DNA of 25,331 bases, from positions 1 through 25,331 of IMG/VR virus record IMGVR_UViG_3300033571_011770; one strand, 5' to 3'. Origin of the DNA: a virus. Positions 1,713 through 18,370 of the stretch are shown piece by piece; positions within the stretch are counted from its first letter, which is position 1, and the number at the start of each line of letters is the position of its first letter. The translations under genes were made by a program, and so were the position numbers. The notes beneath the pieces were generated by a model. The model was given only the letters and a program-made list of their open reading frames with translations. It had not been told where the DNA came from and did not search any database.

Positions 1713-1717
1713 AAAAA

Positions 1718-1723
1718 TATTTA
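1718..1723 (-). promoter_or_regulatory. Late-type promoter box TAAATA before portal
   Basis: TAAATA lies 5 bases before the portal ATG. It resembles the T4 late -10 octamer core. With T4 geometry the transcript would begin at about the start codon. Confidence 0.6.
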
Positions 1724-1748
1724 GTTAAAGGTGGTTTATATTCAATGG

Positions 1749-2192
1749 TTATATCGGATACAGCGGGTTTGAGCACACGGTTATACCCAAGGTCCAAGGA
1801 AATTGAATATTTACGGAATCTGGGAACGAGCTAAGATATGGTAACATTGTGTCTGTTGTGAATTTTCCGTATCCTGCTTCGTTTTCTGCTATTATATCGA
1901 CGTATCCAACAGTTTTTGGTGTTTCTGGAAAGGTGAATACAACAATATCATCGGAAATTGTTGTAAAGTTCGGTATTAATACTGCTTCAAACGCAGGATA
2001 GGCGTTTTTTATTCTGTTACCACACGCCGAAAACGGATTATACTGCGTTGTTCCAGTAAACATCGCAGGATTCGATGCACTTAGATATAAATTTCTTAAA
2101 TTTAATAAAAGCTTTCCACGAACGAGAACGTCAATGCTGGATGCGGGTGTGTTTGTCCCTACATAAATTCTATTTGGGTATATTCTGCTCAT
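1749..2192 (-). CDS. Small structural protein candidate, unknown family
   Basis: This encodes 147 residues starting 'MSRIYPNRIYVG'. I chose the ATG at 2192 because it lies one base after the stop of the upstream gp15-like gene; a start at 2246 would overlap that gene by about 50 bases. The protein is rich in beta-strand-like alternation, with 'VDVLV'-type strands and a 'VGYVDIIAENEAGYG' segment that recalls an IPT/TIG or other Ig-like domain. That is an impression from the pattern, not a recognised family. It sits between the portal and a tail-completion gene and shares their operon, so a virion role (neck, tail or decoration) is the natural inference. No separate promoter box precedes it. 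Confidence 0.7.
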   Translation of the reverse strand: MSRIYPNRIYVGTNTPASSIDVLVRGKLLLNLRNLYLSASNPAMFTGTTQYNPFSACGNRIKNAYPAFEAVLIPNFTTISDDIVVFTFPETPKTVGYVDIIAENEAGYGKFTTDTMLPYLSSFPDSVNIQFPWTLGITVCSNPLYPI

Positions 2193-2193
2193 T

Positions 2194-2940
2194 TTAAAAC
2201 TGTGGTCGCGCTGACAATGACAATGTTTCTGTTGAAAAATCATCAAAACTTTGTAATAGATTGTTAGAACCAGAATATGATTTAACTTCGGAATCTATCG
2301 TGTATATTTTACTATAATTATCGCCAATCTCTTTGAACATCCAACCTTTTATTGTAAATCCAGTGTCTGCGGTTATTCGATACGACTGGTTTCCCTGTAA
2401 ATCGAGTGGATAGTTCAGTGTCACATCGCCGCCCCACAATACTTCCGATCTGATTTCTACTGGAAAGTTTTCGTTTAAATTTGGAATTTTCCAAGAAATT
2501 ACAACATACGGATCGTTATATGGTATGAAATTCGAAAGAATTTGGTCCATGTCGGATTGCGTTTTGGTGATCATCGTCATGTTAACACCGATATTAACAG
2601 GGACGGGTTGTAATATACGCTTACCAATTTCTAAACTTGTGGTTCCGTTGTTATACGGGACGTTGAAACCATCAATTTTATTGAAAACTCTGGTGTTGTC
2701 GCGGGATATTCTCGAAATGTTTACTGCGACAACGGGAAGAACCAGCCCACCGGGTGCTGGATTATTTAAAGTTTGGAAAACGCGAGATTTGGGGGAGTAT
2801 ACGTAAGAAACCTTGATAGAACTAGGGTTCGTCATCAAAGTTTTGTCCTTGTCGTATCTTTTTATGACAATATCATTGAACGCACCGATAAATTGCTCTA
2901 ATAAAGTTTGTATTTCCCAATTAAACGTGTATTTTTGCAT
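2194..2940 (-). CDS. Tail sheath stabiliser/completion protein-like (T4 gp15-like)
   Basis: This encodes 248 residues. The order of elements resembles gp15-type proteins of T4-like phages: an N-terminal helix ending 'FNDIVIKRYDK', a 'VSYVYSPKSRV' strand like the family's 'KVPVAY..K' segment, 'VVAVNISRISRDNTR' matching the 'P.MSFELT...D..R' block, a beta segment ending 'MDQILSNFIPY' (family 'QI.EQILPFF.P'), and a C-terminal 'YRITADTGFTIKGWMFK' like 'W.L.FT.KGYLFG'. gp15 caps the tail after sheath assembly and joins tail to head. The protein is near the T4 length of 272. It is first in a late operon running into the portal gene, with a TAAGTA box 6 bases before its ATG. The call rests on pattern similarity, so it is moderate. 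Confidence 0.6.
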   Translation of the reverse strand: MQKYTFNWEIQTLLEQFIGAFNDIVIKRYDKDKTLMTNPSSIKVSYVYSPKSRVFQTLNNPAPGGLVLPVVAVNISRISRDNTRVFNKIDGFNVPYNNGTTSLEIGKRILQPVPVNIGVNMTMITKTQSDMDQILSNFIPYNDPYVVISWKIPNLNENFPVEIRSEVLWGGDVTLNYPLDLQGNQSYRITADTGFTIKGWMFKEIGDNYSKIYTIDSEVKSYSGSNNLLQSFDDFSTETLSLSARPQF

Positions 2941-2945
2941 TGAAA

Positions 2946-2967
2946 CTACTTATTATAAAATAAGTAG
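2946..2967. repeat. Perfect hairpin between helicase and gp15-like genes
   Basis: CTACTTATT, a four-base loop (ATAA) and AATAAGTAG form nine-base-pair arms. Each arm holds a TAAGTA or its complement, so the element could act as a weak terminator for the helicase transcript and as a promoter box in both directions. No long T tract follows. Confidence 0.6.
2947..2952 (-). promoter_or_regulatory. Late-type promoter box TAAGTA before gp15-like gene
   Basis: TAAGTA lies 6 bases before the ATG at 2940, inside one arm of a hairpin. Confidence 0.6.
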
Positions 2968-2979
2968 ATGCTCAACACT

Positions 2980-4626
2980 TTAGACAAATCTTTCCAAAAA
3001 ATGTTTGGGAAGATGTCGGGACTCTCTCTGTATGGCGTTGACCAATGTTCCGTCCAAAATGTATGTAATCGAATAATCTTCTATCGATCTTGTGCATCTT
3101 CCACTCATTTGGATTGTATTGTCCAACATCTTCATCATATACTTCCGAGGATTTTCCTTGAACATGCGTTTGATTCGATTTGAACCCAAAGGAAGATACG
3201 GTGCTTTACAAACAATTTGAAATCTGCCCAACTCATCATCCAAGCTTACGCCTGTGTCCAATGATGGACTAACCAATATAGTCGGCTCTTTGGAATCGTG
3301 GTGAATTTTCAATATTTGTTCGTTTGTTGCTCCATCTTCTCTAAAAAGAAATCGCGGATTGCCTTTTACTTGCTTTTTAAACTCTTGGGTGATCTTATGA
3401 GTATGCGTATGGATAAGACCCTTCTCATCTTTGTGGTTTTCACACAATTCAATCGCAGAAACAACCAACTTCGGCAAAAGCATATCCATATTTTTGAAAT
3501 TTAATGCATATTTTCTGCTACAAACAATCGGAGATTTCTTTGTGTCGAAAATCGAGTCTATTTCAAAAAATTCATAATCGTCTTTAGCGATACCCAAAGA
3601 CTTTGCATACTCTTCTGGGTCTGATATCGTCGCAGACATTAATAAGATTTTATCTGAACTGTTAAAAATGACACTAGCCAATGGTTTGATATCGTATGGT
3701 GTAAAAACCACTCCATCAGCATCAACCTTCTCAACCATGAATTGGCACGGCCTCCAATATTCCAACGAGTCTCCAATGGTGGATGTTAAATTTTTTAATC
3801 TGAATATTTTCTGAGACATTTTGGAATCAATCGAAGAGAATCCAGAACTACTTGTTTTTTGGGAAGCTTCGGCCATAGCGTCATCCAATGCGTTGTTGAG
3901 TTTGCTGTGAATATCTCTCAACCAAATTTCGGCTTCTTTTGCATCATCAGATTTCAAAGGCTTAAAATCGATGCGTTCATATTTCAGATTTTTATAGTTT
4001 AAGCTGGTTGTGTATTTTGCGACCAACTCTTCTTCCAACTCACCCGCTTCATCAAGAATCAAATGCTCTCTTTTTTTCAAAAAGTCGGGCAAATTGAAAA
4101 ATACGCTGTAATTCAGAAACGCACACTTCGATGCCAACCCCAAATTTCTGTTTTTGTAATAAGGGCATCTGTTTTCGTTGAAACATCTTTGTTTTTGCTC
4201 TGGTAAAATCGAACAAGGTGCAAATTCGGCGGTAAAATTGTTGTCTACGTCACATTCGTAGTTATTTTTACCTTTTATGACGTAATCATCATAAAATATG
4301 TTTTTGTATTGGTCTTGAAGTGACTTCGTAACGGTCAAAACGAACGCCCCAAACGGTTTTGCGTCTAAAAATTCGTTGGCAACCGTATAAGCACCCTCTT
4401 TGTTGACCTTGTATATCTGATAAGTCTCTATCAACGATTCTAAGTGTGGATCGATGTCTTTTGAACTGTCAGCAATCGTTTTGGCGATGTGAGACTTGCC
4501 CGAACCTGTTGGTAACACACCGATTGCAACCCTTTTACCCGAACTCCATATTTTTTCAATCTTATCAAGAGCATCGATTTGTTGTGTTCTTGGTGTAAAA
4601 TCTTTAGGAAAGAAATCTTTTAGCAT
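2980..4626 (-). CDS. DinG/XPD-like superfamily 2 helicase with probable Fe-S cluster
   Basis: This encodes 548 residues from the ATG at 4626; an ATG at 4653 would add nine residues. I prefer 4626 because a promoter -10 box (TACAAT, 4638-4633) lies between the two. Walker A is 'LPTGSGKSHIAK' (Lys44), Walker B/motif II is 'LILDEAGELEE', and motif VI is 'QMSGRCTR'. Between motifs I and II lie five cysteines, near residues 125, 138, 148, 154 and 168, followed by 'FLNYSVFF', which parallels the 'NH.LL' after the cluster in DinG/XPD. That arrangement marks a 4Fe-4S helicase acting 5'-3' on DNA, probably in replication, recombination or R-loop removal. Motif II has Gly where most members have His (DEAG for DEAH). 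It has its own early-type promoter and a hairpin just after the stop. Confidence 0.88.
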   Translation of the reverse strand: MLKDFFPKDFTPRTQQIDALDKIEKIWSSGKRVAIGVLPTGSGKSHIAKTIADSSKDIDPHLESLIETYQIYKVNKEGAYTVANEFLDAKPFGAFVLTVTKSLQDQYKNIFYDDYVIKGKNNYECDVDNNFTAEFAPCSILPEQKQRCFNENRCPYYKNRNLGLASKCAFLNYSVFFNLPDFLKKREHLILDEAGELEEELVAKYTTSLNYKNLKYERIDFKPLKSDDAKEAEIWLRDIHSKLNNALDDAMAEASQKTSSSGFSSIDSKMSQKIFRLKNLTSTIGDSLEYWRPCQFMVEKVDADGVVFTPYDIKPLASVIFNSSDKILLMSATISDPEEYAKSLGIAKDDYEFFEIDSIFDTKKSPIVCSRKYALNFKNMDMLLPKLVVSAIELCENHKDEKGLIHTHTHKITQEFKKQVKGNPRFLFREDGATNEQILKIHHDSKEPTILVSPSLDTGVSLDDELGRFQIVCKAPYLPLGSNRIKRMFKENPRKYMMKMLDNTIQMSGRCTRSIEDYSITYILDGTLVNAIQRESRHLPKHFLERFV

Positions 4627-4632
4627 TTTTAC

Positions 4633-4660
4633 ATTGTAGCACCTTTTGTCCATAGATCAA
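4633..4660 (-). promoter_or_regulatory. Early sigma70-like promoter for the helicase
   Basis: -35 TTGATC (4660-4655), 16-base spacer, -10 TACAAT (4638-4633), then six bases and the ATG at 4626. This decides the start codon: the ATG at 4653 lies upstream of the -10 box. Confidence 0.62.
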
Positions 4661-4666
4661 TAAGTA
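4661..4666 (+). promoter_or_regulatory. Late-type promoter box TAAGTA before 4674 gene
   Basis: TAAGTA lies 7 bases before the ATG and abuts the -35 of the divergent helicase promoter, so the two could compete for polymerase. Confidence 0.6.
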
Positions 4667-4673
4667 TTTTTCC

Positions 4674-4868
4674 ATGCTTGAATTTAAAAATCCTATCCCT
4701 GTAATCACACCAATGGGTCAAGGTTATGCGATATATGTCAGAGACGGCGGAACTTTTGAAAACGATATTTGGTGTGTTGTTTTGGAAGATGGTGGAAAAA
4801 TCTTACATTTTCGATCCGATCATCTGAAAATGTATCAAAATGCGACATTTGACATTAAAGGGCAATAA
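4674..4868 (+). CDS. Conserved small phage protein, unknown function
   Basis: This encodes 64 residues with a balanced globular composition and a 'GQGYAIYVRDGG' then 'ENDIWCVVLEDGG' pattern. I have an impression of similar small proteins in other large phages, but I know no function. It reads like one small beta-rich domain. It diverges from the helicase gene and has a TAAGTA late-type box 7 bases before its ATG, next to the -35 of the helicase promoter on the other strand. The TAA stop also serves as the first three bases of the TAAATA box of the next gene. Confidence 0.72.
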   Translation: MLEFKNPIPVITPMGQGYAIYVRDGGTFENDIWCVVLEDGGKILHFRSDHLKMYQNATFDIKGQ

Positions 4869-4871
4869 ATA
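4866..4871 (+). promoter_or_regulatory. Late-type promoter box TAAATA before 4879 gene
   Basis: TAAATA lies 7 bases before the ATG; its first three bases are the stop codon of the preceding gene. Confidence 0.6.
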
Positions 4872-4878
4872 TATACAT

Positions 4879-5184
4879 ATGAAATTTGAAAAATTAGTCG
4901 AAAGCTTTTTAAACGTATTTTCCCCAGAAGAACCCACAATCGAAGAGGGTAAACATTCCTACAAGGAGTATGGTGAATTGATTGAGATAGCAAGACAACT
5001 CGGTTGCGCTATAAAAGAAACAACAAAGGGGCATATTTTAAAAGCACCCGAATCTATTGCAGGTAGTTTGCCCTTTAATATGAGAATGTTAACGGTTGAT
5101 CGTGGCGACAAGGCGATTTATCCAATTAAGAGATGGTTGAAAAACTATCTTAAACTGAGTCATCCAGTTATCGATAAATTATAA
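4879..5184 (+). CDS. Small protein with capsid-targeting-like N-terminus
   Basis: This encodes 101 residues. I chose the ATG at 4879 over an in-frame ATG at 4840 because the latter overlaps the previous gene and 4879 lies 7 bases after a TAAATA box. The N-terminus 'MKFEKLVESFLNVF' is amphipathic and contains L-V-E, a possible cleavage tripeptide for a gp21-type prohead protease. The body, 'IEIARQLGCAIKETTKGHIL' followed by 'KAP', loosely resembles the small alpha-beta fold of HicA-type proteins ('L...G......GSH..Y..P'), but the catalytic His context is not clear. The stop overlaps the stop of the convergent gene. Function unknown. Confidence 0.72.
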   Translation: MKFEKLVESFLNVFSPEEPTIEEGKHSYKEYGELIEIARQLGCAIKETTKGHILKAPESIAGSLPFNMRMLTVDRGDKAIYPIKRWLKNYLKLSHPVIDKL

Positions 5185-5415
5185 TTTTTCTGTGTAATTT
5201 GCTCGGTCAACGACTTTTCTCACACAGTTGCAAGCATAATAGGCAAAATTGCTTGTATCCCTGCTGGTGTAATATCTCCCGTAACACTTGTTACAATTCT
5301 TTTTGGGATATTGTTTTAGTGGTATTTGGGTAACGTCTAAGATTTTAGAGTCGATTTCGGGCATCTCGAAGATACATCCTGAAAAAACACTATATACTAT
5401 TAAGTTTTTGTTCAT
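5179..5415 (-). CDS. Small zinc-ribbon-like protein
   Basis: This encodes 78 residues. A 'CNKCYGRYY' knuckle (CX2C) at about residues 41-44 is followed 17 residues later by 'ACNC' (CXC), giving four possible zinc ligands. The N-terminus 'MNKNLIVYSVFSGCIFEM' is mildly hydrophobic but too short and polar to call a signal peptide. The start overlaps the end of the upstream gene by about 26 bases, so it is the last gene of the 7900-5179 operon, and its stop overlaps that of the convergent gene. A role in nucleic-acid or protein binding is inferred from the zinc ribbon only. Confidence 0.68.
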   Translation of the reverse strand: MNKNLIVYSVFSGCIFEMPEIDSKILDVTQIPLKQYPKKNCNKCYGRYYTSRDTSNFAYYACNCVRKVVDRANYTEKL

Positions 5416-5758
5416 TTATCTTTAGTATTGTATCAAAGAATTTGTTCTTTGCAAGTTTTGGTGTGAAAACTGTTAAATTCGGCTCTGCTGTAGAAAAGTG
5501 ATTTGATAGTGTTGAAATTCTGTAATCAAACTGTAACACATTCTTGTCATCGTCGCGTGTTATTTTAAAGGGGATCGGAATTTCAATTTTATCTTTGGAT
5601 TTTTTTTCAGAATCGATCAGGAAAACCAGATGGAAGTTTCGCTGGAAAAACAGAACAATTTTTCCTCGTTTTAAAACTTTATTTTTAAGTTCAAAGGTAA
5701 CGTTTTTTTGCAACAAGTCTTTGCAGCATTTTTCAATGTGTGTTCCGTTTATTAACAT
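5390..5758 (-). CDS. Unknown small protein
   Basis: This encodes 122 residues that I do not recognise. It is basic, with strand-like segments ('KIVLFFQRNFHLVFLI', 'IEIPIPFKI') and two adjacent cysteines near residue 11. Its start lies just after the upstream stop and its end overlaps the next gene, so it belongs to the operon that also carries the co-chaperonin. No signal peptide or membrane segment is evident. Confidence 0.65.
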   Translation of the reverse strand: MLINGTHIEKCCKDLLQKNVTFELKNKVLKRGKIVLFFQRNFHLVFLIDSEKKSKDKIEIPIPFKITRDDDKNVLQFDYRISTLSNHFSTAEPNLTVFTPKLAKNKFFDTILKINEQKLNSI

Positions 5759-5759
5759 A

Positions 5760-6185
5760 TTATTTGTCCATGAAAACGCTTTTTTGTGCTGGCGTCCACT
5801 TTAAGATGGTTCCGTTGAAATATTCCCAAAAAGTTTGTTGGGCTTTCTTGTTTTCCAACGTGTTGTTTATATTTTTTTGGGACCGTGTGGGTATTACACC
5901 TGTTGGGATGATGCGCGTTCCCTCAAGCGGGACGGATCGCCAGTCTTGCATGATTATATCCCAAACAATTAAGAGATTTTTCGATGCGGCGTTATAGGAT
6001 GCTTGAAATCTCGGTGCTCTGAATCTTAAAACCTTTTTACCCAAAGCTGAATTCAGCAAAAGGGGATCAAGAGTCATAAGCATTCGACGGGTTCGGGGTC
6101 TTCTGTCTTTATCCCTGCGTGTGAAAATTATTTCCACAACGTTCGTCAATGCTAATCTCTTTAAAGCATCTCTAGATAGGGCCAT
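5760..6185 (-). CDS. WYL_2/DUF2693-like Sm/SH3-fold phage protein
   Basis: This encodes 141 residues. The N-terminal half, 'VVEIIFTRRDKDRRPRTRRM' then 'LMTLDPLLL', and the later 'LLIVWDIIMQDWRSVPLEG' match the family layout I know as DUF2693/WYL_2: 'V.FTK.DG..R.M.CTL' followed by 'V.DL....WR.F....' with a small Sm-like SH3 beta-barrel. Phages carry many copies of this domain; a nucleic-acid or ligand-binding role is suspected but not established. The ATG shares bases with the stop of the co-chaperonin gene, indicating translational coupling. A C-terminal tail of about 40 residues goes beyond the usual domain. Confidence 0.7.
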   Translation of the reverse strand: MALSRDALKRLALTNVVEIIFTRRDKDRRPRTRRMLMTLDPLLLNSALGKKVLRFRAPRFQASYNAASKNLLIVWDIIMQDWRSVPLEGTRIIPTGVIPTRSQKNINNTLENKKAQQTFWEYFNGTILKWTPAQKSVFMDK

Positions 6186-6568
6186 TATGCTGTCTTCGCT
6201 TCAACTACACCGAAGATTCGGGCTTCGCTCAAGAATACAACATTCTTCAAACCATTAACGTTTGCGGCTTTAATTCCTTTATCATTGGGGAACATGATAT
6301 GGTCGCCAGTCTTGACCGTTTTACACCCAACTCCTGCGAGAACAACTTTACCAATTCTCCAAGTAAAAGTAACTGCGTCAACAGGAACCCATAAGTTTCC
6401 CCGTCTGACTTCTCTACCATCGTCAGATACGTCTACGTATTGAACGAACAATATATCGTCTAAAACGGTGGTTAAATTCCAACCGTCAAGATTAATGTCA
6501 GAATTTTTATAGTTTTCAAGCTCTACTAAGCCTTTGTTTAAGTTTTCAGTGTTAGGTCTATCGATCAT
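6185..6568 (-). CDS. 31: Co-chaperonin, T4 gp31/GroES-like
   Basis: This encodes 127 residues with a GroES-type layout: 'VLDDILFVQYVDVSDDG' (GroES 'L.DRVLV'), a mobile-loop-like region, 'NLWVPVDA' (GroES 'GIIIP'), 'RIGKVVLAGVG' (GroES 'GEVVAVG'), 'VKTGDHIMFPNDKG' (GroES 'VKVGD.V.F....G') and a C-terminal 'VVFLSEARIFGVVE' (GroES 'L.E.DILAVV'). T4 gp31 replaces GroES on host GroEL to fold the major capsid protein, and this protein would do the same. An extra N-terminal arm of about 30 residues precedes the domain. A TAAATA box lies exactly 6 bases before the ATG, consistent with late expression alongside capsid production. Confidence 0.78.
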   Translation of the reverse strand: MIDRPNTENLNKGLVELENYKNSDINLDGWNLTTVLDDILFVQYVDVSDDGREVRRGNLWVPVDAVTFTWRIGKVVLAGVGCKTVKTGDHIMFPNDKGIKAANVNGLKNVVFLSEARIFGVVEAKTA

Positions 6569-6574
6569 GAAAAC

Positions 6575-6580
6575 TATTTA
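6575..6580 (-). promoter_or_regulatory. Late-type promoter box TAAATA before co-chaperonin
   Basis: TAAATA lies exactly 6 bases (GTTTTC) before the ATG at 6568, within an otherwise continuous operon, so the co-chaperonin can be expressed late on its own. Confidence 0.65.
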
Positions 6581-6581
6581 C

Positions 6582-6950
6582 TCATGTTTTCAAATCTTCA
6601 AGTAACTTATTATAACGAATCAGTTCTTTCTTGGAAATTTCTAAATTTTGACACACAGTTATATCGTCCACCGCCTCTTTATCCTTGACCTTTTTAGTTT
6701 TTTTAATATACGTTATTCTTTTGGTGTATTTGGGTATAATTTTCTGATAAAACCGAATAACGTGGTCCCTGTCATATTCGTCTTTAGATATATTCCACCT
6801 GTTATATGTAAGATTTACAATCTTGGCAACGTCAGAGTTCGCCATTGACAACCAACGGTTCAGCATGAAAAGACTCAAATCGTTTTCATCTATCGGAAAC
6901 GATTTTGTTTTTCGCAAAATCCAGTTTAAAAGTTCAAAAATGTTTTCCAT
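6582..6950 (-). CDS. Possible clamp-loader small subunit (gp62-like)
   Basis: This encodes 122 residues, helical and basic. The pattern 'LSLFMLNRWLSM' followed by 'FYQKIIPKYTKRITYIKKTK' resembles the small clamp-loader subunits of divergent T4-like phages, where a '..PF.VNR.LS' block is followed by a basic '..R.SKW.K' segment. gp62 and gp44 load the sliding clamp, which T4 also needs for late transcription. T4 gp62 is 187 residues, so this would be a shortened version. The gene lies between a small unknown and the co-chaperonin, with its start overlapping the previous gene. This is a tentative call; a generic small helical protein is the alternative. Confidence 0.5.
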   Translation of the reverse strand: MENIFELLNWILRKTKSFPIDENDLSLFMLNRWLSMANSDVAKIVNLTYNRWNISKDEYDRDHVIRFYQKIIPKYTKRITYIKKTKKVKDKEAVDDITVCQNLEISKKELIRYNKLLEDLKT

Positions 6951-7227
6951 TTTTATTTTTTCTTTTTATGATTTGAGCAGTTCCGTTTTCGTATTGTGGT
7001 TCAAAGTTTTCTTCTAACCATTTATAGGCAGCTTTTATGTGTGGGACAAATATACCATTTCCGCTGGTGGCAAAATCAACCAAATACCAATCGGTTCCGC
7101 GCCAATGTAAAGTAAAACTTGCCCAACACCCCCAAAATCCACTCTTTTCATCAAAAATAAAGGTGTTATGCTTTCGTGTTACGGTATACGAAATGGCACA
7201 TAACAGAATATTTTCAGTATCATTCAA
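6934..7227 (-). CDS. Unknown small protein with probable TTG start
   Basis: This encodes 97 residues with no internal methionine; the only plausible start is TTG at 7227, which overlaps the stop of the upstream glycosyltransferase gene. It is rich in aromatics ('FWGCWASFTLHWRGTDWYLV') and ends in a basic, Asn- and Lys-rich tail. I know no family. Overlaps on both sides (8 bases upstream, 17 downstream) make it an internal gene of the operon, and translational coupling could explain the weak start. Confidence 0.62.
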   Translation of the reverse strand: MNDTENILLCAISYTVTRKHNTFIFDEKSGFWGCWASFTLHWRGTDWYLVDFATSGNGIFVPHIKAAYKWLEENFEPQYENGTAQIIKRKNKNGKHF

Positions 7228-7900
7228 AATCTTTGTATAATTTTTTAAAAGTTTCGGCGGATTTTGCCCATTCTGGTGTATTCATACTGTCACCCAACCC
7301 AAAGTGGATTGCGCGTAGAGGTATTACGCCCATTTTTAGCTTTAATTTGTTTGCCATTAAACAGAATGTTATATCGTAGTGGTGAAAATCGAAATTTTCG
7401 TCAAACTTTAAACCGACTTCCAATGCTCGGTTTACATTTACGCCGATAAAAAGACCATCTATAACCAATGCTCTGGATTTTGTTGGACCGAAACAGGTTG
7501 TCCATATGACATCATCCTTTCGATGTGCCACTTCTCCGACAAAATCTTCTCTTTGTGACATCATATGCCATGCTGGAACAGATGCGGTCAAATCGCACTT
7601 TTTAGAACCCGCCAACCCGATGATATCGTAATCGGAAAAACCGTTTATAATCTTCTCTTCGAAAAAAAGGTCATCGATGATAACATCATCATGAACAAAA
7701 ATGATATATTTGTCTCGATATTCTTCCGTTAGATACTTGTTGTATACTTTTGTTAAGCCTGTCTTGTTATTTTCTACAATGTCCGTTTGTTTGTCCATCT
7801 TTGATTTCTCTAGGAATAACCCTAACGGTTTATTGAGTAGTAATTCAGTTCCAGACCCCTTCGTTGCGGTAACAAATAGAAGATTTTCGATATTTTCCAT
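7220..7900 (-). CDS. StrF-type GT-A glycosyltransferase
   Basis: This encodes 226 residues. It has the layout of the StrF/Glyco_tranf_2_5 group: an N-terminal 'NLLFVTATKG', a metal-binding-like 'IIFVHDDVIIDD', 'YDIIGLAGSKKCD', 'VIDGLFIGVNVNRALEVGLK', and 'FDFHHYDITFCLMANK' with the conserved H-Y-D. Such enzymes move a sugar from a nucleotide donor to an unknown acceptor; in phages this may be DNA, a virion protein or a host surface glycan. It is first in its operon and has a clear sigma70-like promoter whose -10 box (7912-7907) ends 6 bases before the ATG. At least two more GT-A genes lie at the right end of the window. Confidence 0.8.
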   Translation of the reverse strand: MENIENLLFVTATKGSGTELLLNKPLGLFLEKSKMDKQTDIVENNKTGLTKVYNKYLTEEYRDKYIIFVHDDVIIDDLFFEEKIINGFSDYDIIGLAGSKKCDLTASVPAWHMMSQREDFVGEVAHRKDDVIWTTCFGPTKSRALVIDGLFIGVNVNRALEVGLKFDENFDFHHYDITFCLMANKLKLKMGVIPLRAIHFGLGDSMNTPEWAKSAETFKKLYKDFE

Positions 7901-7906
7901 TTTTAT

Positions 7907-7934
7907 AGTGTAACAGCTTTGATTAAATTGTCAA
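7907..7934 (-). promoter_or_regulatory. Early sigma70-like promoter for the StrF-type glycosyltransferase
   Basis: -35 TTGACA (7934-7929, perfect), 16-base spacer, -10 TACACT (7912-7907), then six bases and the ATG at 7900. The predicted transcript is leaderless. Confidence 0.7.
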
Positions 7935-7955
7935 ATAAATTGTTTCTGTCTGGGA

Positions 7956-7961
7956 TAAGTA
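7956..7961 (+). promoter_or_regulatory. Late-type promoter box TAAGTA before 7971 gene
   Basis: TAAGTA lies 9 bases before the ATG at 7971, in the divergent gap opposite the early glycosyltransferase promoter. Confidence 0.55.
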
Positions 7962-7970
7962 ATTTATAAC

Positions 7971-9936: not shown

Positions 9937-9965
9937 AGTGTAGCAAACTATCTTGAGCTAGTCAA
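9937..9965 (-). promoter_or_regulatory. Early sigma70-like promoter for primase
   Basis: -35 TTGACT (9965-9960), 17-base spacer, -10 TACACT (9942-9937), then six bases and the GTG at 9930. Confidence 0.72.
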
Positions 9966-10769: not shown

Positions 10770-10782
10770 ATGAAATTTTAAA

Positions 10783-10788
10783 TATTTA
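10783..10788 (-). promoter_or_regulatory. Late-type promoter box TAAATA before 10769 gene
   Basis: TAAATA lies 13 bases before the ATG, the widest spacing in the set, so this mRNA would have a short leader. Confidence 0.5.
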
Positions 10789-10793
10789 TCATT

Positions 10794-11456: not shown

Positions 11457-11461
11457 AAAAA

Positions 11462-11779
11462 TTATTTACTGATGCATTTTGAGTTTTCAACTATCTCTGG
11501 GAAGTAATGTAAAATTTCGGGTGTGTGTTCGTCGCAGTAAAACTCTCCCCCATCACCAAACTTTGTGGCATACGGTGGTATCTCTGTAATCTTAACATTT
11601 TCGGTTAAAATTTCTGGATACAACTTGCGAAGTTTTATCCCAAGATTTTTTATATCTTCTGTTTCTTCTCGATACACGTTACAACTAACATCGATTGAAC
11701 ACGTAAACAGAATGGATTCTAAAATTAGCTGATATTCTCTGGCTGTTAAATTGACATTTACTACATCATCATTATTCAT
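11462..11779 (-). CDS. Unknown small protein
   Basis: This encodes 105 residues. An N-terminal helix-rich half ('LTAREYQLILESILFTCSI') is followed by a region with scattered Cys and His ('GEFYCDEHTPEILHYF'). I know no family. A sigma70-like promoter lies directly upstream (TTGACT at 11815-11810, TAATAT at 11793-11788), so it is probably early and starts close to the mRNA 5' end. Its stop is embedded in the late box of the next gene. Confidence 0.65.
   Translation of the reverse strand: MNNDDVVNVNLTAREYQLILESILFTCSIDVSCNVYREETEDIKNLGIKLRKLYPEILTENVKITEIPPYATKFGDGGEFYCDEHTPEILHYFPEIVENSKCISK
11463..11468 (-). promoter_or_regulatory. Late-type promoter box TAAATA before P-loop kinase gene
   Basis: TAAATA lies 6 bases before the ATG at 11456 and overlaps the stop codon of the upstream gene. 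Confidence 0.6.
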
Positions 11780-11787
11780 AATGATTT

Positions 11788-11815: not shown

Positions 11816-11818
11816 TTT

Positions 11819-12205: not shown

Positions 12206-12210
12206 ATATA

Positions 12211-12216
12211 TACTTA
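12211..12216 (-). promoter_or_regulatory. Late-type promoter box TAAGTA before 12205 gene
   Basis: TAAGTA lies 5 bases before the ATG at 12205, in a 35-base divergent gap shared with the spanin candidate. Confidence 0.58.
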
Positions 12217-12229
12217 TAGCTGTCCTGAA

Positions 12230-12235
12230 TAATTA
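12230..12235 (+). promoter_or_regulatory. Variant late-type box TAATTA before spanin candidate
   Basis: TAATTA lies 5 bases before the ATG at 12241. It departs from TAA(A/G)TA at one position, so it is the weakest member of the set. Confidence 0.35.
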
Positions 12236-12240
12236 CTTAT

Positions 12241-12837: not shown

Positions 12838-12840
12838 ACC

Positions 12841-13029
12841 GTGCGGAACTTTTTTGGTGCTACTGTTGAGCGCGACCAAACGATCAACAAGTTAGAATCT
12901 GATTTATTAAAAAAAATCAAAGAGATTTGTCCACCGGAAGCACCCCCGAATTCTGTTAAAGTCAACGAAACTCGGTTTGTCGGATTTGAGGATGCAATAA
13001 AAGAACTAATTGCCATGTCAAAACAGTAA
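12841..13029 (+). CDS. Small unknown protein, GTG start
   Basis: This encodes 62 residues starting at GTG, three bases after the stop of the spanin candidate. It has an N-terminal helical part ('RDQTINKLESDLLKKIKEIC') and a Pro-rich turn. No signal peptide or membrane segment is seen. Its TAA stop is also the start of the TAAATA box of the next gene. It is small and has no ribosome-binding site, so its reality rests on the tight fit between neighbours. Confidence 0.52.
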   Translation: MRNFFGATVERDQTINKLESDLLKKIKEICPPEAPPNSVKVNETRFVGFEDAIKELIAMSKQ

Positions 13030-13032
13030 ATA
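13027..13032 (+). promoter_or_regulatory. Late-type promoter box TAAATA before 13041 gene
   Basis: TAAATA lies 8 bases before the ATG; its first three bases are the stop of the previous gene. Confidence 0.58.
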
Positions 13033-13040
13033 GTTAATAT

Positions 13041-13265
13041 ATGAATTTCAAAAAAATCGTTAGCGAGAACTTGGACAACATGATGGCTGATATCAAAAAT
13101 ATGAAAGATACCAGTCAACCAGACTCGACCCAAATATCACCAACTCCGACACAACCTCGTCCTGCTGCACCCGCTTCGATGTATGAAATTAGACTTAATG
13201 GTAAAGTTCTGGTAACGGCAAAAAATAAACAAGAACTCTTTCAAAAGATACAAACCATTCCTTAA
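13041..13265 (+). CDS. Small unknown late-class protein
   Basis: This encodes 74 residues: an amphipathic N-terminus ('MNFKKIVSENLDNMMADIK'), a Ser/Thr/Pro/Gln-rich linker and a C-terminal strand-helix unit ('MYEIRLNGKVLVTAKNKQEL'). The N-terminus recalls the leader-like starts of other late-class proteins here, though it lacks a clear L/I-X-E tripeptide. A TAAATA box lies 8 bases before the ATG. It sits inside the lysis cassette, but nothing in it shows a lysis role. Confidence 0.62.
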   Translation: MNFKKIVSENLDNMMADIKNMKDTSQPDSTQISPTPTQPRPAAPASMYEIRLNGKVLVTAKNKQELFQKIQTIP

Positions 13266-13270
13266 AACTT

Positions 13271-13735
13271 ATGTGGAACACATTCATGAACATGGTAAAA
13301 GGTGCTGGTTCGATGTTAACGAACAGCGCACCACCAAACACGCCACCGGAATATATTGACGAATTAAAGGAAACCAATTTTTTAAGAAGTAAAAAATTCT
13401 TTATCGTTTTTAGTTCCTTTTTAATAATCTTGGCATATTTCGGCGTGGGAACATTCATTTTGTTTTTAACAAGTCCGTTACCCGACATCATCGCACCGTT
13501 TGTGACAATTTTTACCAAAACTTTGGAAGTTTTGGTTATCATCGTATCAGTATATCTCGGTCTTCAAGCTACTTTAGATTTTAAATACGGTTCAAACTCT
13601 AATGTAAATTACAGTGGAGAAAATAAAGTTACCACCGAAAAGGTTGAACAAGTAATTGTTCATAAATACGCCGAAAAATACAAAAACGACCCAAGCTACG
13701 CCCCAATCGATTGGGCTTTAAAGGATGACAAATAA
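13271..13735 (+). CDS. Two-helix membrane protein, holin candidate
   Basis: This encodes 154 residues with two strong hydrophobic segments, 'FFIVFSSFLIILAYFGVGTF' (about 43-66) and 'LEVLVIIVSVYLGLQATL' (about 85-105), and a hydrophilic charged C-terminal tail. It lies directly before the endolysin gene and after the spanin candidate, which is the usual place for a holin. Size and topology fit several holin classes, but holins have little shared sequence, so this is context-based. T4 holin t has a single membrane segment and a large periplasmic domain, so this is not a t homologue. Confidence 0.66.
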   Translation: MWNTFMNMVKGAGSMLTNSAPPNTPPEYIDELKETNFLRSKKFFIVFSSFLIILAYFGVGTFILFLTSPLPDIIAPFVTIFTKTLEVLVIIVSVYLGLQATLDFKYGSNSNVNYSGENKVTTEKVEQVIVHKYAEKYKNDPSYAPIDWALKDDK

Positions 13736-13736
13736 T

Positions 13737-14432
13737 ATGACACCTTTAAAATTAGGAAGTTTCGGGTTAGAGGTAAAAACATGGCAAGAGTTTTTAAAAA
13801 AGTCTGGTTATAACATTCCCATTATTGATGGTGCGTTCGGTCCCGTAACAGATTCACAAACAAAAGCTTTTCAAAAGGCAAACGGTCTTACGGTTGATGG
13901 TGTTGTTGGTCCAAAAACTTTCAAATTCGCTGACAAGTCCGATCCGACAATAGATTTGACAAAAAAATGGCCAAAACAAAACTATGATTCTATGGTGGAG
14001 TTTTACGGGCCTGTTGGTGAAAACCAAACATCAATCGATGTTCCATATCCGCTGATTATTGCGTGGGAACCATCTCAAGTTATAAAGAAGATCACATGTA
14101 ACGAAAAGGTTGCACACTCTTTGTATAAAATTCTCGAAGACACTTTAAAATCTTACGGTCAAAAAGATATATCCAAATTAAAGTTGGATTTATTCGGTGG
14201 TTGTTTAAACGTTCGCAAAATGCGTGGTGGTAGTGCATGGAGCATCCATTCTTGGGGTGCAGCATTAGACCTTGATCCTGATAACAACCAATTAAAGTGG
14301 GGGAAAGATAAAGCCGCCTTCGCTAAAAAAGAATATGAACCTTTTTGGAAAATTGTAGAGGGTGAAGGATGGGTAAGTTTGGGACGCTCTCGCAATTACG
14401 ATTGGATGCATTTCCAGGCTGCGTTGTTATAA
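13737..14432 (+). CDS. Endolysin: peptidoglycan-binding domain plus M15 peptidase
   Basis: This encodes 231 residues from the ATG at 13737; an ATG at 13725 adds four residues and overlaps the previous gene. An AAGGA at 13721-13725 is better spaced for 13737. Residues about 1-65 are a PG_binding_1 domain ('GSFGLEVKTWQEFLKKSGY', 'IDGAFGPVT', 'LTVDGVVGPKT'). The C-terminal domain is a VanY/M15-type zinc peptidase with 'SIHSWGAALDLD' (the HxxxxxxD zinc ligands) and a final 'DWMHFQ' histidine. It would cut stem-peptide bonds in peptidoglycan at lysis. T4 uses a muramidase (e) instead, so the lytic enzyme is of a different class. Confidence 0.9.
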   Translation: MTPLKLGSFGLEVKTWQEFLKKSGYNIPIIDGAFGPVTDSQTKAFQKANGLTVDGVVGPKTFKFADKSDPTIDLTKKWPKQNYDSMVEFYGPVGENQTSIDVPYPLIIAWEPSQVIKKITCNEKVAHSLYKILEDTLKSYGQKDISKLKLDLFGGCLNVRKMRGGSAWSIHSWGAALDLDPDNNQLKWGKDKAAFAKKEYEPFWKIVEGEGWVSLGRSRNYDWMHFQAALL

Positions 14433-14891
14433 CAAAGCTTTCAAAACCTTTTCCAATTGTTCTCCACCCAAGTTTAAACACTTCAAACTTTGGTATTCAC
14501 CGCTTGAAACCAAATCGGATTCTAGTTTTGGAATATTTTTCCCACCGCACAAGTTTTTTTTGCAACAGGTTTTAACCTTTTTGCTAAAAGCTTCCAGATC
14601 GTCGATATAATCTGAATAAATTTCTGGATTTTTATCGAAATCAAAGAAATACACCTTCATGTTCAAGGCTTTGGATGTTTCTTCGATCTTAGCTTTGGTT
14701 TCTTCGATGTGTTTTAGAATATAATCGTTCGTGCATCGGTTATATTTTTGAATTTTACCGTCTTTTAGAAGGTTCCATTCGTGTAAAAAGTCCAAAGTGT
14801 CCAACGCTAATCGTTCGACGTAATTCGACACCGAAAAAAGCAACAATCTTTCGGATAAGACGCAATAAAAACAGTCTTTAAAATTTATCAT
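14427..14891 (-). CDS. Unknown Cys-containing protein
   Basis: This encodes 154 residues from the ATG at 14891. A TTG at 14900 would add three residues. The start overlaps the end of the upstream gene. It is mostly helical, with 'DCFYC' near the N-terminus and a second cluster 'TCCKKNLCGG' near residues 110-120, so metal binding is possible. The two clusters are far apart and I know no family. Its stop overlaps that of the convergent endolysin gene. Confidence 0.66.
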   Translation of the reverse strand: MINFKDCFYCVLSERLLLFSVSNYVERLALDTLDFLHEWNLLKDGKIQKYNRCTNDYILKHIEETKAKIEETSKALNMKVYFFDFDKNPEIYSDYIDDLEAFSKKVKTCCKKNLCGGKNIPKLESDLVSSGEYQSLKCLNLGGEQLEKVLKALL

Positions 14892-15414
14892 CGCTATCAA
14901 GTATAGCGGATATTAAAATCTTTTCAACTATTTCGACGGGTAGAGCAGCATTTGCATATTTCAAAGTCGCTCGAATGTCTTTGAACTCTTCAACAAGCCT
15001 GTCTTTGATATTTTCAATCTCTTCGGTTTGGTTGGCGTCTTTTCCTTCGATGATTGGTGTTTGCGATATGGCAAATGCTTCCAACAATGGTTCGGATAAA
15101 CGCAAAACCATTTCTGACAATCTTTTATACATTCGATCCAGCGGGGATTTGTATTTTTTGTCGTTTTTTTGTTGCAGCATTTCTAACATGTGCGTCATAA
15201 CTGCTGATTTTTTAACTTGTTCTTGGATTTGCATAAAGATTGTTCCGCCTCTTACGTGATAATTGCTGTATGGATTGTATGCGCAACCGCTTCCGTAAGA
15301 AGTTGAGCCGCAATAGATGCATTTGTTGGGTTCGTCAGCATGAACGTGTGTATTTGTTGGACTATAAATACACGGTTGTCCATAAGACGAGGATGCGCAA
15401 TACATACATTTCAT
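14878..15414 (-). CDS. Protein with tandem zinc knuckles and helical C-terminus
   Basis: This encodes 178 residues. Two near-identical units make up the first 55: 'KCMYCASSSYGQPCIYSP' with a following 'HVHAD', and 'KCIYCGSTSYGSGCAYNP' with a following 'YHVRGG'. Each supplies CX2C, a third Cys nine residues on, and a His, so each probably binds one zinc. The rest is helical ('MTHMLEMLQQ', 'RLVEEFKDIRATLKYA'). I have seen this knuckle type in other large phages, but its function is unknown. The gene starts four bases after the stop of the nuclease gene, in the same operon. Confidence 0.72.
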   Translation of the reverse strand: MKCMYCASSSYGQPCIYSPTNTHVHADEPNKCIYCGSTSYGSGCAYNPYSNYHVRGGTIFMQIQEQVKKSAVMTHMLEMLQQKNDKKYKSPLDRMYKRLSEMVLRLSEPLLEAFAISQTPIIEGKDANQTEEIENIKDRLVEEFKDIRATLKYANAALPVEIVEKILISAILDSDDKF

Positions 15415-15418
15415 TTTT

Positions 15419-15916
15419 TTATTGTTCCACCTTTAAATCGAGTATTCTTTGTTTGTTTTCGGCCAAAAACGGTTTGGCTAATTCTATTAAAAACTTATCC
15501 TTGTAAATCATTACATTACCTGTTTTTATAAAGTTATATTCTTTTAAATAACAAACATATACATTTTTATGGGTTATTTTAAAAAACAATAACCAAAACG
15601 GTTTATTTGTATGACTCGCTTGTGAAATCCAACCATCTAAAACTGCGCATTCGTCGTTAAAAAGTGCATGAAAAGGAAAATCTTTATAATTTTTAACCTC
15701 TAAACTTAAATGATCGAGTTCTTCTGGAACAACAATATCCCCTTCGTTTAAATTTTGTTGTTCTTTTGTAAAATTATTAAATTTAGATATATTTTTACCA
15801 CCAAAAAACGAACCCGATCCAAAAACTCGCATAAAGGGGAGGTTAAAACATTCCGACAACATATTACATACTGCCGTTTCGCCTCGCTTTCCCTTCGCTT
15901 TAGATGTATTAGACAT
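15419..15916 (-). CDS. PD-(D/E)XK nuclease, Hjc-like Holliday junction resolvase candidate
   Basis: This encodes 165 residues from the ATG at 15916. A start at 15943 is a TTG inside the upstream gene. The N-terminus 'KAKGKRGETAVCNMLSE' carries the first acidic residue (Glu13) in the 'G.RGE' context of archaeal-type Hjc enzymes. 'NEGDIVVPEE' gives Asp60 and 'LSLEVKNYK' gives the E-X-K pair (Glu73, Lys75); 'WISQA' could supply the usual Gln. The predicted job is resolving branched DNA before packaging, which T4 does with the unrelated gp49 (endonuclease VII). A generic restriction-like nuclease is the alternative. No promoter box directly precedes it, and the homing-endonuclease gene overlaps its start. 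Confidence 0.74.
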   Translation of the reverse strand: MSNTSKAKGKRGETAVCNMLSECFNLPFMRVFGSGSFFGGKNISKFNNFTKEQQNLNEGDIVVPEELDHLSLEVKNYKDFPFHALFNDECAVLDGWISQASHTNKPFWLLFFKITHKNVYVCYLKEYNFIKTGNVMIYKDKFLIELAKPFLAENKQRILDLKVEQ

Positions 15917-16655
15917 TTGATAATCGATTTTTATAACTATCAACTTCTAAAAGTTGATAAGATTTTATGACACAATTGGTTTTAATCATTTTTTTAATTT
16001 TAAATCTAGATATTTTCAAATTTTTTTCAGCATCTTTAATATTTCGAAATTCTAACAATTCTCCACTCGTTACATTTAAAAATTTTAAATATATCCAAGT
16101 ATTATATCCGCTATGTTGTTTTCCTATTTTGGTCATATCTGCGCCCACCAAACACCATCCTTTCACAGATTTTTGATCGCCTTTTAAAATTGCAACCAAA
16201 TCTGATCGATTACAGGATAATTCTTTAGCCGCTAAAAAACAATATTTCCATTTTTTAATTTTTCCCGTTTTAATATTCATCAGTTCTATACTTCTTTTAC
16301 CTTTATATATCGGCGGTTTTGAGCATATAGGATTAATATTTAAACACAATTTATTTTTTATATTTTTATCCACATATTTTTGCTCTATATCAAAATAATT
16401 CACCACATTCGGATCAAAAATTTCTAAAATTTCTACATAAAAAGCACTTTTACCGTATTTGTTGTATACATTTTGTAATTTTTTATTATCATGTAATTTT
16501 TTATTTAAATTTCGATAATGTTCTAAAAATCTTTTATATAAATTTTTAGAACTTCCGATGTAAAACTTACCATTTGTATCACACAAAATTTTATACACAC
16601 AAGAAATATTTAATTTTGTTTTTATGATATATTCTAACGGGTATTTTATAACCAT
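15909..16655 (-). CDS. Free-standing GIY-YIG homing endonuclease with NUMOD-like repeats
   Basis: This encodes 248 residues. The catalytic domain is textbook: 'CVYKILCDTNGKFYIGSSKN' (G-Y variant 'VYK' and 'YIG'), then Arg42 and His46 in 'LYKRFLEHYRNL', 'LQNVYNKYGKSAFYVEIL', and the metal-binding Glu91 in 'IEQKYVD'. Two DNA-binding NUMOD-like units follow ('IKTGKIKKWKYCFLAAKEL' and 'FRNIKDAEKNLKISRF'). The gene is visibly more AT-rich than its neighbours, a sign of transfer. It carries its own perfect T4 late octamer (TATAAATA, 16669-16662) and its 3' end overlaps the start of the resolvase-like gene. Confidence 0.92.
   Translation of the reverse strand: MVIKYPLEYIIKTKLNISCVYKILCDTNGKFYIGSSKNLYKRFLEHYRNLNKKLHDNKKLQNVYNKYGKSAFYVEILEIFDPNVVNYFDIEQKYVDKNIKNKLCLNINPICSKPPIYKGKRSIELMNIKTGKIKKWKYCFLAAKELSCNRSDLVAILKGDQKSVKGWCLVGADMTKIGKQHSGYNTWIYLKFLNVTSGELLEFRNIKDAEKNLKISRFKIKKMIKTNCVIKSYQLLEVDSYKNRLSNV
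15938..15959. repeat. Inverted repeat near the end of the homing-endonuclease gene
   Basis: TATCAACTT, four bases and AAGTTGATA form nine-base-pair arms, inside the last codons of the homing endonuclease and just before the start of the resolvase-like gene. It could affect translation of that gene, or be coincidence within coding sequence. Confidence 0.5.
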
Positions 16656-16661
16656 ATTAAC

Positions 16662-16669
16662 TATTTATA
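16662..16669 (-). promoter_or_regulatory. Perfect T4-type late octamer before homing endonuclease
   Basis: TATAAATA lies 6 bases before the ATG at 16655. This is the exact T4 late consensus, the only perfect copy I noted before a gene start. Confidence 0.7.
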
Positions 16670-16693
16670 TAGAATACCTAACAAATTAAATTT

Positions 16694-18358
16694 TTATTTT
16701 TTGATTTGTTTGCCACGTTTTTTCTTTGTTTTCTTTTTGGCGGTTGTTAATTCGGGAAATGTTCGTCTCTGAACCTTTCCTAAGATTTTCGGAACTCTTG
16801 CATCGTTTGGTGCGTAGTGATCACCGGAAAATTGTGTTGCTGTTGCCGAAACGTCACCAAAAACGCTCATCGCACCCGCCGCAGAATTTTCCTCAAGGTA
16901 TTCCAAATATTCATCAGCTTTTTTGCTGAAAGAACTTTCTTTCATCGTTCCTACAGCTTTGATTTTTTCTTTTACTTGTTCTGGTGTAACTTTCATACCC
17001 ATTTCGATCACCCAATCTCTGACGGCATTTTTAATGCGACCAATTTCTTCGCCTTTTACGTTCGGCAAGAGTTCCATGATCATTTTACCATTAATTATCG
17101 TTCCCATCTGTTTTTCAAATTCGTTTACTGGTTTGTTTTCAAACTTTTTCAACACATCTTCGACTTTACCCATCTTGGTTTCGAATTTTTCAGGTTCAAA
17201 TACGTGTAATCGGGATGCTTCGTCGGAATATATAACATCTTTGAGCAAATCCCAATGTTTGTTGTGTCGTAATTGCAAAATTTTCTTATCGTTCATCTTA
17301 TCGATGTTGTGACCGCGCATATGGTTCTCTATTGCATAGTTGATAGCCTCTTTATCATCGTTGGAGAACTTCAAACGTGCAGCTATCCCGTTAAATATCG
17401 GAACACCCGCCGCTTCGTGACCATAATAAGTTGGTTGGTCGTTTTTATAACCTAATGTGGTTGTTTTGCCCAAATCGTGAAACAATACAGCCAAATTTGT
17501 TAACGGGTTTGTCGATTTTGAAGCACGTAAGGCTGATAAAGTATGTTCGTATGGTCCACCCTCTGGATGGTGCTTTGGATTATGCTTCAACCCTTTCATT
17601 TTGTGAAATTCTGGTATCAATCTTTCTAGGATTCCCAATTCGTCTAATTTTTCGATGAATCGGGCTAAAGATTCGCCAGTTTCCGCCGATTTGAAAAACT
17701 CATCACGAATTCTCTCTACTGATAAGGTTTGTAACGAGTCTAAAAGTTCAGTTGCGCTAGTTAAAGTGTTTTCATCCACATCAAAACCTGTTTTAGCAGC
17801 AAATCGCAACAATCTTAGTATTCTCAAAGCATCTTCTTTGAATCTTTTCTTTGGATCACCAACCGCTTTGATTATTTTGTTTTTTAAATCGTCTAACCCG
17901 CCAACATAGTCTATAATTTCACCGTCTTTGTCGATTCCCAACGCATTGATCGTAAAATCTCTACGCATAGCGTCTTTCTCAAACGATTTAACGGCTTTTA
18001 CGCTATCAGGTCTTCTATTATCAGTATATTCTCCATCTTCCCTGAATTGAGCGACTTCAAAACTGAATCCGTCTTGTTGAACCACGACAATTCCGAAATC
18101 TTTGGATTTTCCGATGTCATGCGTTTTAAAAATTTGAGATATTTGTTCAGGATCGGCTGATGATGCGATATCCACATCTTTTGGCTCTTTGCCCATGATG
18201 ATATCACGAACACACCCACCAACAATATAAGCCTTTTCTGATAATTCGCTTTCGATCCGATTTAATACCTTAACCGCCGCAGAATACATTGGATTATCGG
18301 GAACTTCGATGCGACTTTCTGTTATGCGCTTAAAAAAACTGTTAAATTTGTTTGACAT
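16694..18358 (-). CDS. cca: tRNA nucleotidyltransferase (CCA-adding) with HD domain
   Basis: This encodes 554 residues. The nucleotidyltransferase core is clear: 'YIVGGCVRDIIMG' (44-56), the catalytic 'DVDIAS' (Asp61, Asp63), and 'RRDFTINALG' (132-141). An HD phosphohydrolase-type domain follows: His272 in 'PYEHTLSAL' and 'LFHDLGKTTTLG' (His294, Asp295). It would repair or add CCA ends on tRNA. Two features are odd. The first 20 residues ('MSNKFNSFFKRITESRIE') form a leader with I-T-E, like T4 capsid-targeting peptides, and about 80 extra C-terminal residues include 'GDHYAPNDARVPKILG' and a Lys-rich tail. A TAAGTA box lies 6 bases before the ATG, so expression looks late. No tRNA gene was seen nearby. 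Confidence 0.92.
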   Translation of the reverse strand: MSNKFNSFFKRITESRIEVPDNPMYSAAVKVLNRIESELSEKAYIVGGCVRDIIMGKEPKDVDIASSADPEQISQIFKTHDIGKSKDFGIVVVQQDGFSFEVAQFREDGEYTDNRRPDSVKAVKSFEKDAMRRDFTINALGIDKDGEIIDYVGGLDDLKNKIIKAVGDPKKRFKEDALRILRLLRFAAKTGFDVDENTLTSATELLDSLQTLSVERIRDEFFKSAETGESLARFIEKLDELGILERLIPEFHKMKGLKHNPKHHPEGGPYEHTLSALRASKSTNPLTNLAVLFHDLGKTTTLGYKNDQPTYYGHEAAGVPIFNGIAARLKFSNDDKEAINYAIENHMRGHNIDKMNDKKILQLRHNKHWDLLKDVIYSDEASRLHVFEPEKFETKMGKVEDVLKKFENKPVNEFEKQMGTIINGKMIMELLPNVKGEEIGRIKNAVRDWVIEMGMKVTPEQVKEKIKAVGTMKESSFSKKADEYLEYLEENSAAGAMSVFGDVSATATQFSGDHYAPNDARVPKILGKVQRRTFPELTTAKKKTKKKRGKQIKK

Positions 18359-18364
18359 TGAAAA

Positions 18365-18370
18365 TACTTA
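18365..18370 (-). promoter_or_regulatory. Late-type promoter box TAAGTA before CCA-adding enzyme
   Basis: TAAGTA lies 6 bases (TTTTCA) before the ATG at 18358, one base from the -35 of the divergent early promoter. Confidence 0.62.

Follow-up and report, generated by a model that had tools for sequence, protein, structure and literature searches.

Start-abutting late boxes and sigma70-type promoters point to leaderless early and late transcripts in a clade of uncultured T4-like viruses

The DNA analyzed here (the window, used throughout for the whole stretch) is a viral contig of 25,331 bases, IMG/VR record IMGVR_UViG_3300033571_011770, and the element in question is the hexamer TAARTA (R: A or G), termed late box, which lies directly ahead of many of its start codons. 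The window encodes a T4-type portal protein, gp15, helicases, a gp47-like nuclease, a primase, the late sigma factor gp55 and a CCA-adding enzyme. With the Portal_T4 and gp15 families in the window and 16 T4 late families having homologues in the clade, the virus is a T4-like (Straboviridae/Kyanoviridae-like) myovirus. No near match was found among 50,697 phage records, and the best portal matches of GenBank phages are only ~30% identical to the window portal. Part of a related record of 41,165 bases (G001) matches the entire window length at 99.99% identity. Relatives were collected by a portal search, from which 80 loci of 159 were kept, and by a helicase search yielding 17. The main set comprises nine contigs including the window with 1187 genes, G001 being excluded as a duplicate; the related records G017 and G018 have 19 kb in common at 99.96%. 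The clade is AT-rich with a G+C fraction of 0.29-0.36.

An earlier note on this DNA, made from the sequence alone, had listed twelve genes on both strands with a late box, separated from the ATG by gaps of 5, 6, 7, 7, 6, 9, 13, 6, 5, 8, 6 and 6 bases. Coordinates and upstream sequences show that all twelve boxes are present with these starts and gaps (Table 1). The suspicion that the motif might be just as common at random positions was not borne out, as the window contains 32 sites on both strands vs 44 expected from shuffled sequence. With independent gene calling, which misses some of the starts used in the earlier note, a box at gap 4-9 precedes 10 of 38 window genes, while shuffles gave a mean of 0.6 and a maximum of 2.

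The position of the motif relative to starts, proposed in the earlier note as a check, is equally clear across the nine contigs: a box at gap 5-9 is found at 256/1187 gene starts and at 6/4190 internal in-frame ATGs. Only four genes carry it at gap 4, followed by 90, 72, 47, 26 and 24 genes at gaps 5-9 and then a tail. In a motif-free, position-specific hexamer count, TAAATA/TAAGTA, located roughly between -15 and -4, ranked first in nine of the ten contigs; exceptions are TAATTA in G018 and ATAAGT, which overlaps the box, in G019. In each of the ten contigs the number of boxed genes is above the largest of 20 shuffles. The variant TAAGTA makes up 28% of 209 boxes. Tested against the T4 octamer TATAAATA, the sequence ahead of late genes is TAARTA, with the first two octamer bases weakly conserved. 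In 31/256 cases the TAA of the box doubles as stop codon of the upstream gene, and 75/256 are divergent starts. Among loci of at least 8 kb, some of them within the same contigs, a box at gap 5-9 was found in 27/27 loci with at least 60% portal identity (27 of 34 used), in 28/29 loci with 44-48% identity (29 of 45 used) and in 12/14 helicase relatives (14 of 16 used); the gap peaks at 6 in the first group and at 5 in the second. Contigs with relatives from bacterial metagenome-assembled genomes (MAGs) also carry it, L274 with six boxes at gap 5-9 in 16 genes and L275 with five in 21.

A second promoter type is present at the same place. TTGACA-N16/17/18-TATAAT-like pairs precede 236/1187 genes, and the -10 box lies 5 bases from the start codon in 9, 6 in 53, 7 in 21 and 8 in 27 of these; a within-gene control gave 24 hits in 698, two of them at gap 5-9. 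For sigma70 promoters, +1 on the start codon would ordinarily correspond to a gap of 6. Both promoter types are divided by gene class, as seen when T4 homologues were sorted by T4 function into 91 late and 95 early genes. The late box at gap 4-15 precedes 52/91 late and 0/95 early homologues. The sigma70-type pair at gap 4-12 precedes 33/95 early and 0/91 late homologues, so that the late genes, as in T4, have no -35 element. Counted by family, the late box occurs in 14/16 late and 0/16 early families and the sigma70-type pair in 10/16 early and 0/16 late families. These counts retain a doubtful "gp21" at window position 23657 and short "gp23" hits in G017/G018, a spurious pair that accounts for two of the 52 late homologues with a box. 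The label "E_33", assigned by a T4 gp33 hidden Markov model to window positions 18584-18979 and to relatives, was wrong, as PHROGs identify a UvsY-like protein; since gp33 and UvsY are both early genes in T4, the early count is unaffected.

Genes in tightly overlapped runs had been described as lacking the box, which holds as a strong tendency, with 13/308 overlapping genes boxed at gap 4-15, but not absolutely. A box at this gap precedes 101/330 genes with an intergenic gap of 0-19, 107/331 with a gap of at least 20 and 108/214 divergent starts. If first genes are defined as those that start divergently or follow a neighbor on the same strand at a distance of 20 bases or more (n = 545), one or both promoters are found at 322/545 first genes and at 30/308 genes overlapping their neighbor.

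Shine-Dalgarno-like motifs were counted at gap 4-13, each class against a control position. Before boxed genes they are at background (8/330, control 7/330). In the other classes of the clade they precede 20/333 unboxed first genes (control 10), 18/229 genes with an intergenic gap of 0-19 (control 12) and 38/295 overlapping genes (control 11), so that a weak signal persists mostly at genes for which a leaderless message is impossible. The comparator phages T4, HTVC008M and P-SSM2 gave 136/248 (control 11), 87/178 (control 16) and 63/285 (control 18), respectively. Start codons at late boxes differ with the gap: at gap 5 there are 72 ATG and 18 GTG (18/90), at gaps 6, 7, 8, 9, 10 and 12 there are 188 ATG and six GTG (6/194), and TTG is absent from both; gaps 11 and 13-15 lie outside this count. 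Unboxed genes begin with ATG in 816, GTG in 32 and TTG in nine cases. At sigma70-type promoters the numbers are 45 ATG and eight GTG at gap 6 and 23 ATG and four GTG at gap 8; because gap 8 also shows GTG, the rise is less clean than at late boxes. In mycobacteria, leaderless initiation is described as using ATG or GTG only (PMC4633059), which the occurrence of GTG but not TTG at gap 5 resembles.

Table 1. Late boxes, gp55 gene and selected sigma70-type promoters of the window (gap: bases between the box, or -10 box, and the start codon).
Feature	Position	Strand	Start and gene product	Evidence
TAAATA, gap 5	1718..1723	-	ATG 1712, portal protein gp20	Portal_T4 E 2e-98
TAAGTA, gap 6	2947..2952	-	ATG 2940, tail sheath stabiliser gp15	T4-gp15_tss E 2.9e-16
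TAAGTA, gap 7	4661..4666	+	ATG 4674	
TAAATA, gap 7	4866..4871	+	ATG 4879	
TAAATA, gap 6	6575..6580	-	ATG 6568, weak GroES-like match	phrog_3188 E 2.6e-4
TAAGTA, gap 9	7956..7961	+	ATG 7971	
TAAATA, gap 13	10783..10788	-	ATG 10769	
TAAATA, gap 6	11463..11468	-	ATG 11456, thymidylate-kinase-like	phrog_2107 E 1e-15
TAAGTA, gap 5	12211..12216	-	ATG 12205	
TAAATA, gap 8	13027..13032	+	ATG 13041	
TAAATA, gap 6	16662..16667	-	ATG 16655, GIY-YIG homing endonuclease	phrog_314 E 9.5e-21
TAAGTA, gap 6	18365..18370	-	ATG 18358, CCA-adding enzyme	PolyA_pol E 1.6e-37
gp55-type late sigma factor, acidic N-terminal extension	20397..21077	+		phrog_234 E 6.1e-25; alignment
TTGACA-N17-TATAAT, gap 6	18372..18400	+	ATG 18407, 50-codon open reading frame (18407-18559); back to back with late box of 18358	position by eye
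TTGCAA-N16-TATAAT, gap 10	18546..18573	+	GTG 18584, UvsY-like, first gene before uvsW-like and gp55	phrog_231 E 1.3e-10
TTGACT-N17-TACACT, gap 6	9937..9965	-	GTG 9930, primase	phrog_47 E 4.1e-36
TTGACA-N16-TACACT, gap 6	7907..7934	-	ATG 7900	
TTGACA-N17-TAAGAT, gap 7	22495..22523	+	GTG 22531 (independent caller: start at 22606)	

The gp55-like gene reported in the earlier note is indeed present (phrog_234, E 6e-25), and the same family, a gp55 of T4 type, was detected in 13/19 related records, several of which are fragments. The first 90 residues contain 29-38 acidic residues in eight of nine clade proteins and 20 in G010, compared with 10-12 in gp55 of T4, P-SSM2, HTVC008M and AG-345-O18. This long acidic N-terminal extension is somewhat reminiscent of sigma70 region 1.1. 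A loss of the clamp-binding tail of gp55 was also considered: in the alignment, the clade proteins lack the T4 tail, but the ends of P-SSM2 and AG-345-O18 differ too, and we make no claim in this regard.

In T4 the late octamer starts at -13 (PMC2988020). With a gap of 5, +1 would thereby coincide with the initial base of the start codon, corresponding to a leader of zero, and any shorter gap would truncate that codon. The late edge at 5 and the sigma70 edge at 6 thus each coincide with the zero-leader spacing of the respective promoter type. We therefore regard it as very probable that the clade uses a leaderless programme for early as well as late genes, based on host sigma70 and phage gp55, with a transcription start on the start codon being predicted from promoter spacing. 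Leaders of 0 to about 4 bases are supported by the sequence for the late mRNAs. The earlier note had suggested leaderless transcripts for the late programme, and the geometry, the late-gene specificity, the missing Shine-Dalgarno sites, the T4 control and the conservation are in support of this. The geometry is, however, neither late-specific, because early sigma70-type promoters abut start codons likewise, nor universal, since a leader is retained ahead of gp23, the major capsid gene, and contains AGGAGG in two relatives.

According to this model, the transcripts of many first genes would start at the start codon itself or a few bases upstream. The host RNA polymerase, equipped with a sigma70-type factor, would read early genes from TTGACA-N16/17/18-TATAAT, with the end of the -10 box ~6 bases ahead of the start codon, and late genes would depend on phage gp55 and one TAARTA box whose end lies 5-9 bases from the start codon, provided that +1 falls at the spacing of T4 and Escherichia coli. 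The mRNA would then begin with AUG or GUG, and the ribosome probably binds the 5'-terminal start codon directly without a Shine-Dalgarno sequence. Genes in overlapping runs, as a rule with neither promoter, are probably translated by coupling, with a weak Shine-Dalgarno signal, and the major capsid gene would be exempt with its leader kept. If true, this is a T4-type cascade rebuilt such that promoter position alone sets the start of transcription and of translation, with two promoter classes and different sigma factors each independently under a zero-leader limit, and start codon annotation in such phages would be almost exact.

Several observations weigh against this reading. Neither promoter was found at 223/545 first genes by the criteria used, and the late box also occurs at 9/126 selected sigma70-type starts. 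When up to one mismatch is tolerated, hexamers resembling the box are present at gap 5-9 in 17/95 early and 47/91 late homologues, so that the box discriminates only when exact. The homologues are not independent, to which the overlap of G017 and G018 adds, and the gene caller penalizes GTG and TTG, lowering their share equally in all classes. Two partners of gp55 in T4 late transcription were not detected in the 12 clade records searched: the coactivator gp33 (phrog_254) and the clamp gp45 (phrog_223) each gave 0/12, although the same profiles find HTVC008M and P-SSM2. Possibly, gp33 has diverged beyond the reach of the profile. PF02916 (gp45) was also found in 0/12 records, but this profile misses HTVC008M and P-SSM2 too; the clamp loader gp44 is present in the clade, which makes a diverged clamp likely. 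Finally, gp23 is mostly without a box and has a leader. Upstream of its ATG, AGGAGG is located at a distance of 9-12 bases in G003 and G004, a GAAAG-type sequence is found in G010, G014 and G018, and in G006 a box at gap 10 follows GAAAGG; hairpins were predicted in several of these regions in folds of the relatives, made without a control. Apparently, therefore, the most abundant protein is made from a leadered message.

The boxes might be gp55 late promoters with +1 located farther upstream, or with the true starts downstream, so that leaders exist. It is true that the start codons are predictions and that the gaps tail to about 15 bases, so that leaders reaching about 10 bases probably exist at some genes; but conserved N-termini begin at the called starts, e.g., in gp18, gp20 and gp25, and the edges at 5 and 6 would be left unexplained, and we regard this reading as very improbable. 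About equally improbable, in our view, is that TAARTA is an A/U-rich translation-initiation element on leadered mRNA replacing the Shine-Dalgarno sequence, as proposed for Bacteroidota. The clade lacks strong Shine-Dalgarno signals, contig L274 of a relative was binned with a Chitinophagaceae genome, and upstream signals rich in A and T have been described for Bacteroidetes (PMC3160421). However, early homologues lack exact boxes entirely and have sigma70-type promoters at the same place, few overlapping genes have the box, where a translation signal would be most necessary, the sharp edge at 5 tracks promoter spacing, and the upstream regions show no enrichment of TAnnTTTG, the promoter of Bacteroidota; on these grounds such a signal was rejected as the leading explanation. 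That TAARTA lies near starts by chance in AT-rich intergenic DNA, for which the base composition of the clade would speak, is practically refuted by the shuffles in ten of ten contigs, by the internal ATGs and by the AT-rich comparators T4, P-SSM2 and PAU, which stay within their shuffles.

Beyond the leaderless programme itself, it is conceivable, if rather unlikely, that the initiation mode forms a regulatory layer, in which separately promoted genes are nearly all leaderless, the capsid gene is leadered with an SD-like (Shine-Dalgarno-like) sequence, and host ribosomes are steered toward phage mRNAs by a phage-encoded ribosomal protein, bS21; in this scenario the T4 clamp and gp33 may also be dispensable for late transcription, with the acidic gp55 extension partly replacing them. 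bS21 (PF01165, over cut-off) is encoded in 5/12 records, namely G003, G010, G014, G015 and G016. Published phages with bS21 were predicted to infect Bacteroidetes (PMC9723584); inspection by eye of the bS21 sequences from three records pointed to no particular host. Two MAGs with portal-gene relatives are named Chitinophagaceae and Lachnospiraceae, bin membership being weak host evidence. Large relatives carry tRNA genes, and ARAGORN reported transfer-messenger RNA-like genes in G010 and G014 (L151, L132), the tag peptides being 9 and 33 residues long. In the window, the GIY-YIG homing-endonuclease-like gene (15909-16655) lies in a low-GC stretch and has a late box of its own. Furthermore, five late-boxed window proteins (starts 4879, 10769, 12205, 13041 and 18358, the latter being the CCA-adding enzyme) have in common an N-terminal motif like KF[DN]xxVxxxL. 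It was found in 41 clade proteins besides those of the window and G001, with a late box in 30/41 vs 319/1149 genes generally. The motif is reminiscent of the T4 capsid targeting sequence, and if it acted as such, these would be packaged proteins.

Leaderless genes, a leaderless phage programme and the T4 late system are known already; no report of leaderless transcripts together with a T4-type late system was found in the open-licence PubMed Central (PMC) papers searched, and the sole paper matching leaderless, T4-like and late promoter has "leaderless" in a reference title only. One paper mentions, as an aside, that leaderless transcripts are frequent in phages (PMC5312081). For the Thermus phage phiYS40, most middle and late mRNAs were described as leaderless (PMC3594737). 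This phage, compared here by description only, differs in its Thermus host, in the clade the early genes share the geometry, and the passage on phiYS40 in that paper mentions neither gp55 nor a T4-type late promoter. Leaderless genes of Actinobacteria and Deinococcus-Thermus are alike in having a -10 box few bases from the start and RTG at the 5' end (PMC3160421; PMC4633059; PMC12340547). They differ in being cellular and, as described there, in having sigma70-type boxes only, with no second class read by a phage sigma factor.

T4 late promoters have the sequence TATAAATA and are read with gp55, gp33 and gp45 (PMC2988020). The clade is similar in possessing a gp55 homologue and a TAAATA-type box without -35 element before virion genes on both strands. 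In contrast to T4, it lacks Shine-Dalgarno sites, TAAGTA is frequent, the gp33 and gp45 families were not detected, and the box lies 5-9 bases from the start codon; with the same caller, boxes lie mostly at gaps 20-29 in T4 and 20-25 in P-SSM2. Boxes at exactly gap 5 were tested in nine comparators against 200 shuffles. None was found in T4, RM378, phiW-14, phiM12 and Atu_ph07, and the numbers are within shuffle range in PAU (2, maximum 4), P-SSM2 (3, maximum 3) and AG-345-O18 (2, maximum 2). Only HTVC008M is above its shuffles, with nine gap-5 genes (mean 0.67, maximum 4). Late-promoter searches are reported to have failed in pelagimyophages (PMC7029224), which boxes abutting the starts may explain. 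HTVC008M (NC_020484), a cultured T4-like phage of SAR11/Pelagibacter with gp55, resembles the clade in having TAAATA at gap 5, including before gp2- and gp25-like genes. The likeness is partial, as HTVC008M otherwise uses the Shine-Dalgarno sites counted above and the sigma70-type scan gave a single hit at gap 5-9; it is nevertheless the cultured phage in which the leaderless idea is testable.

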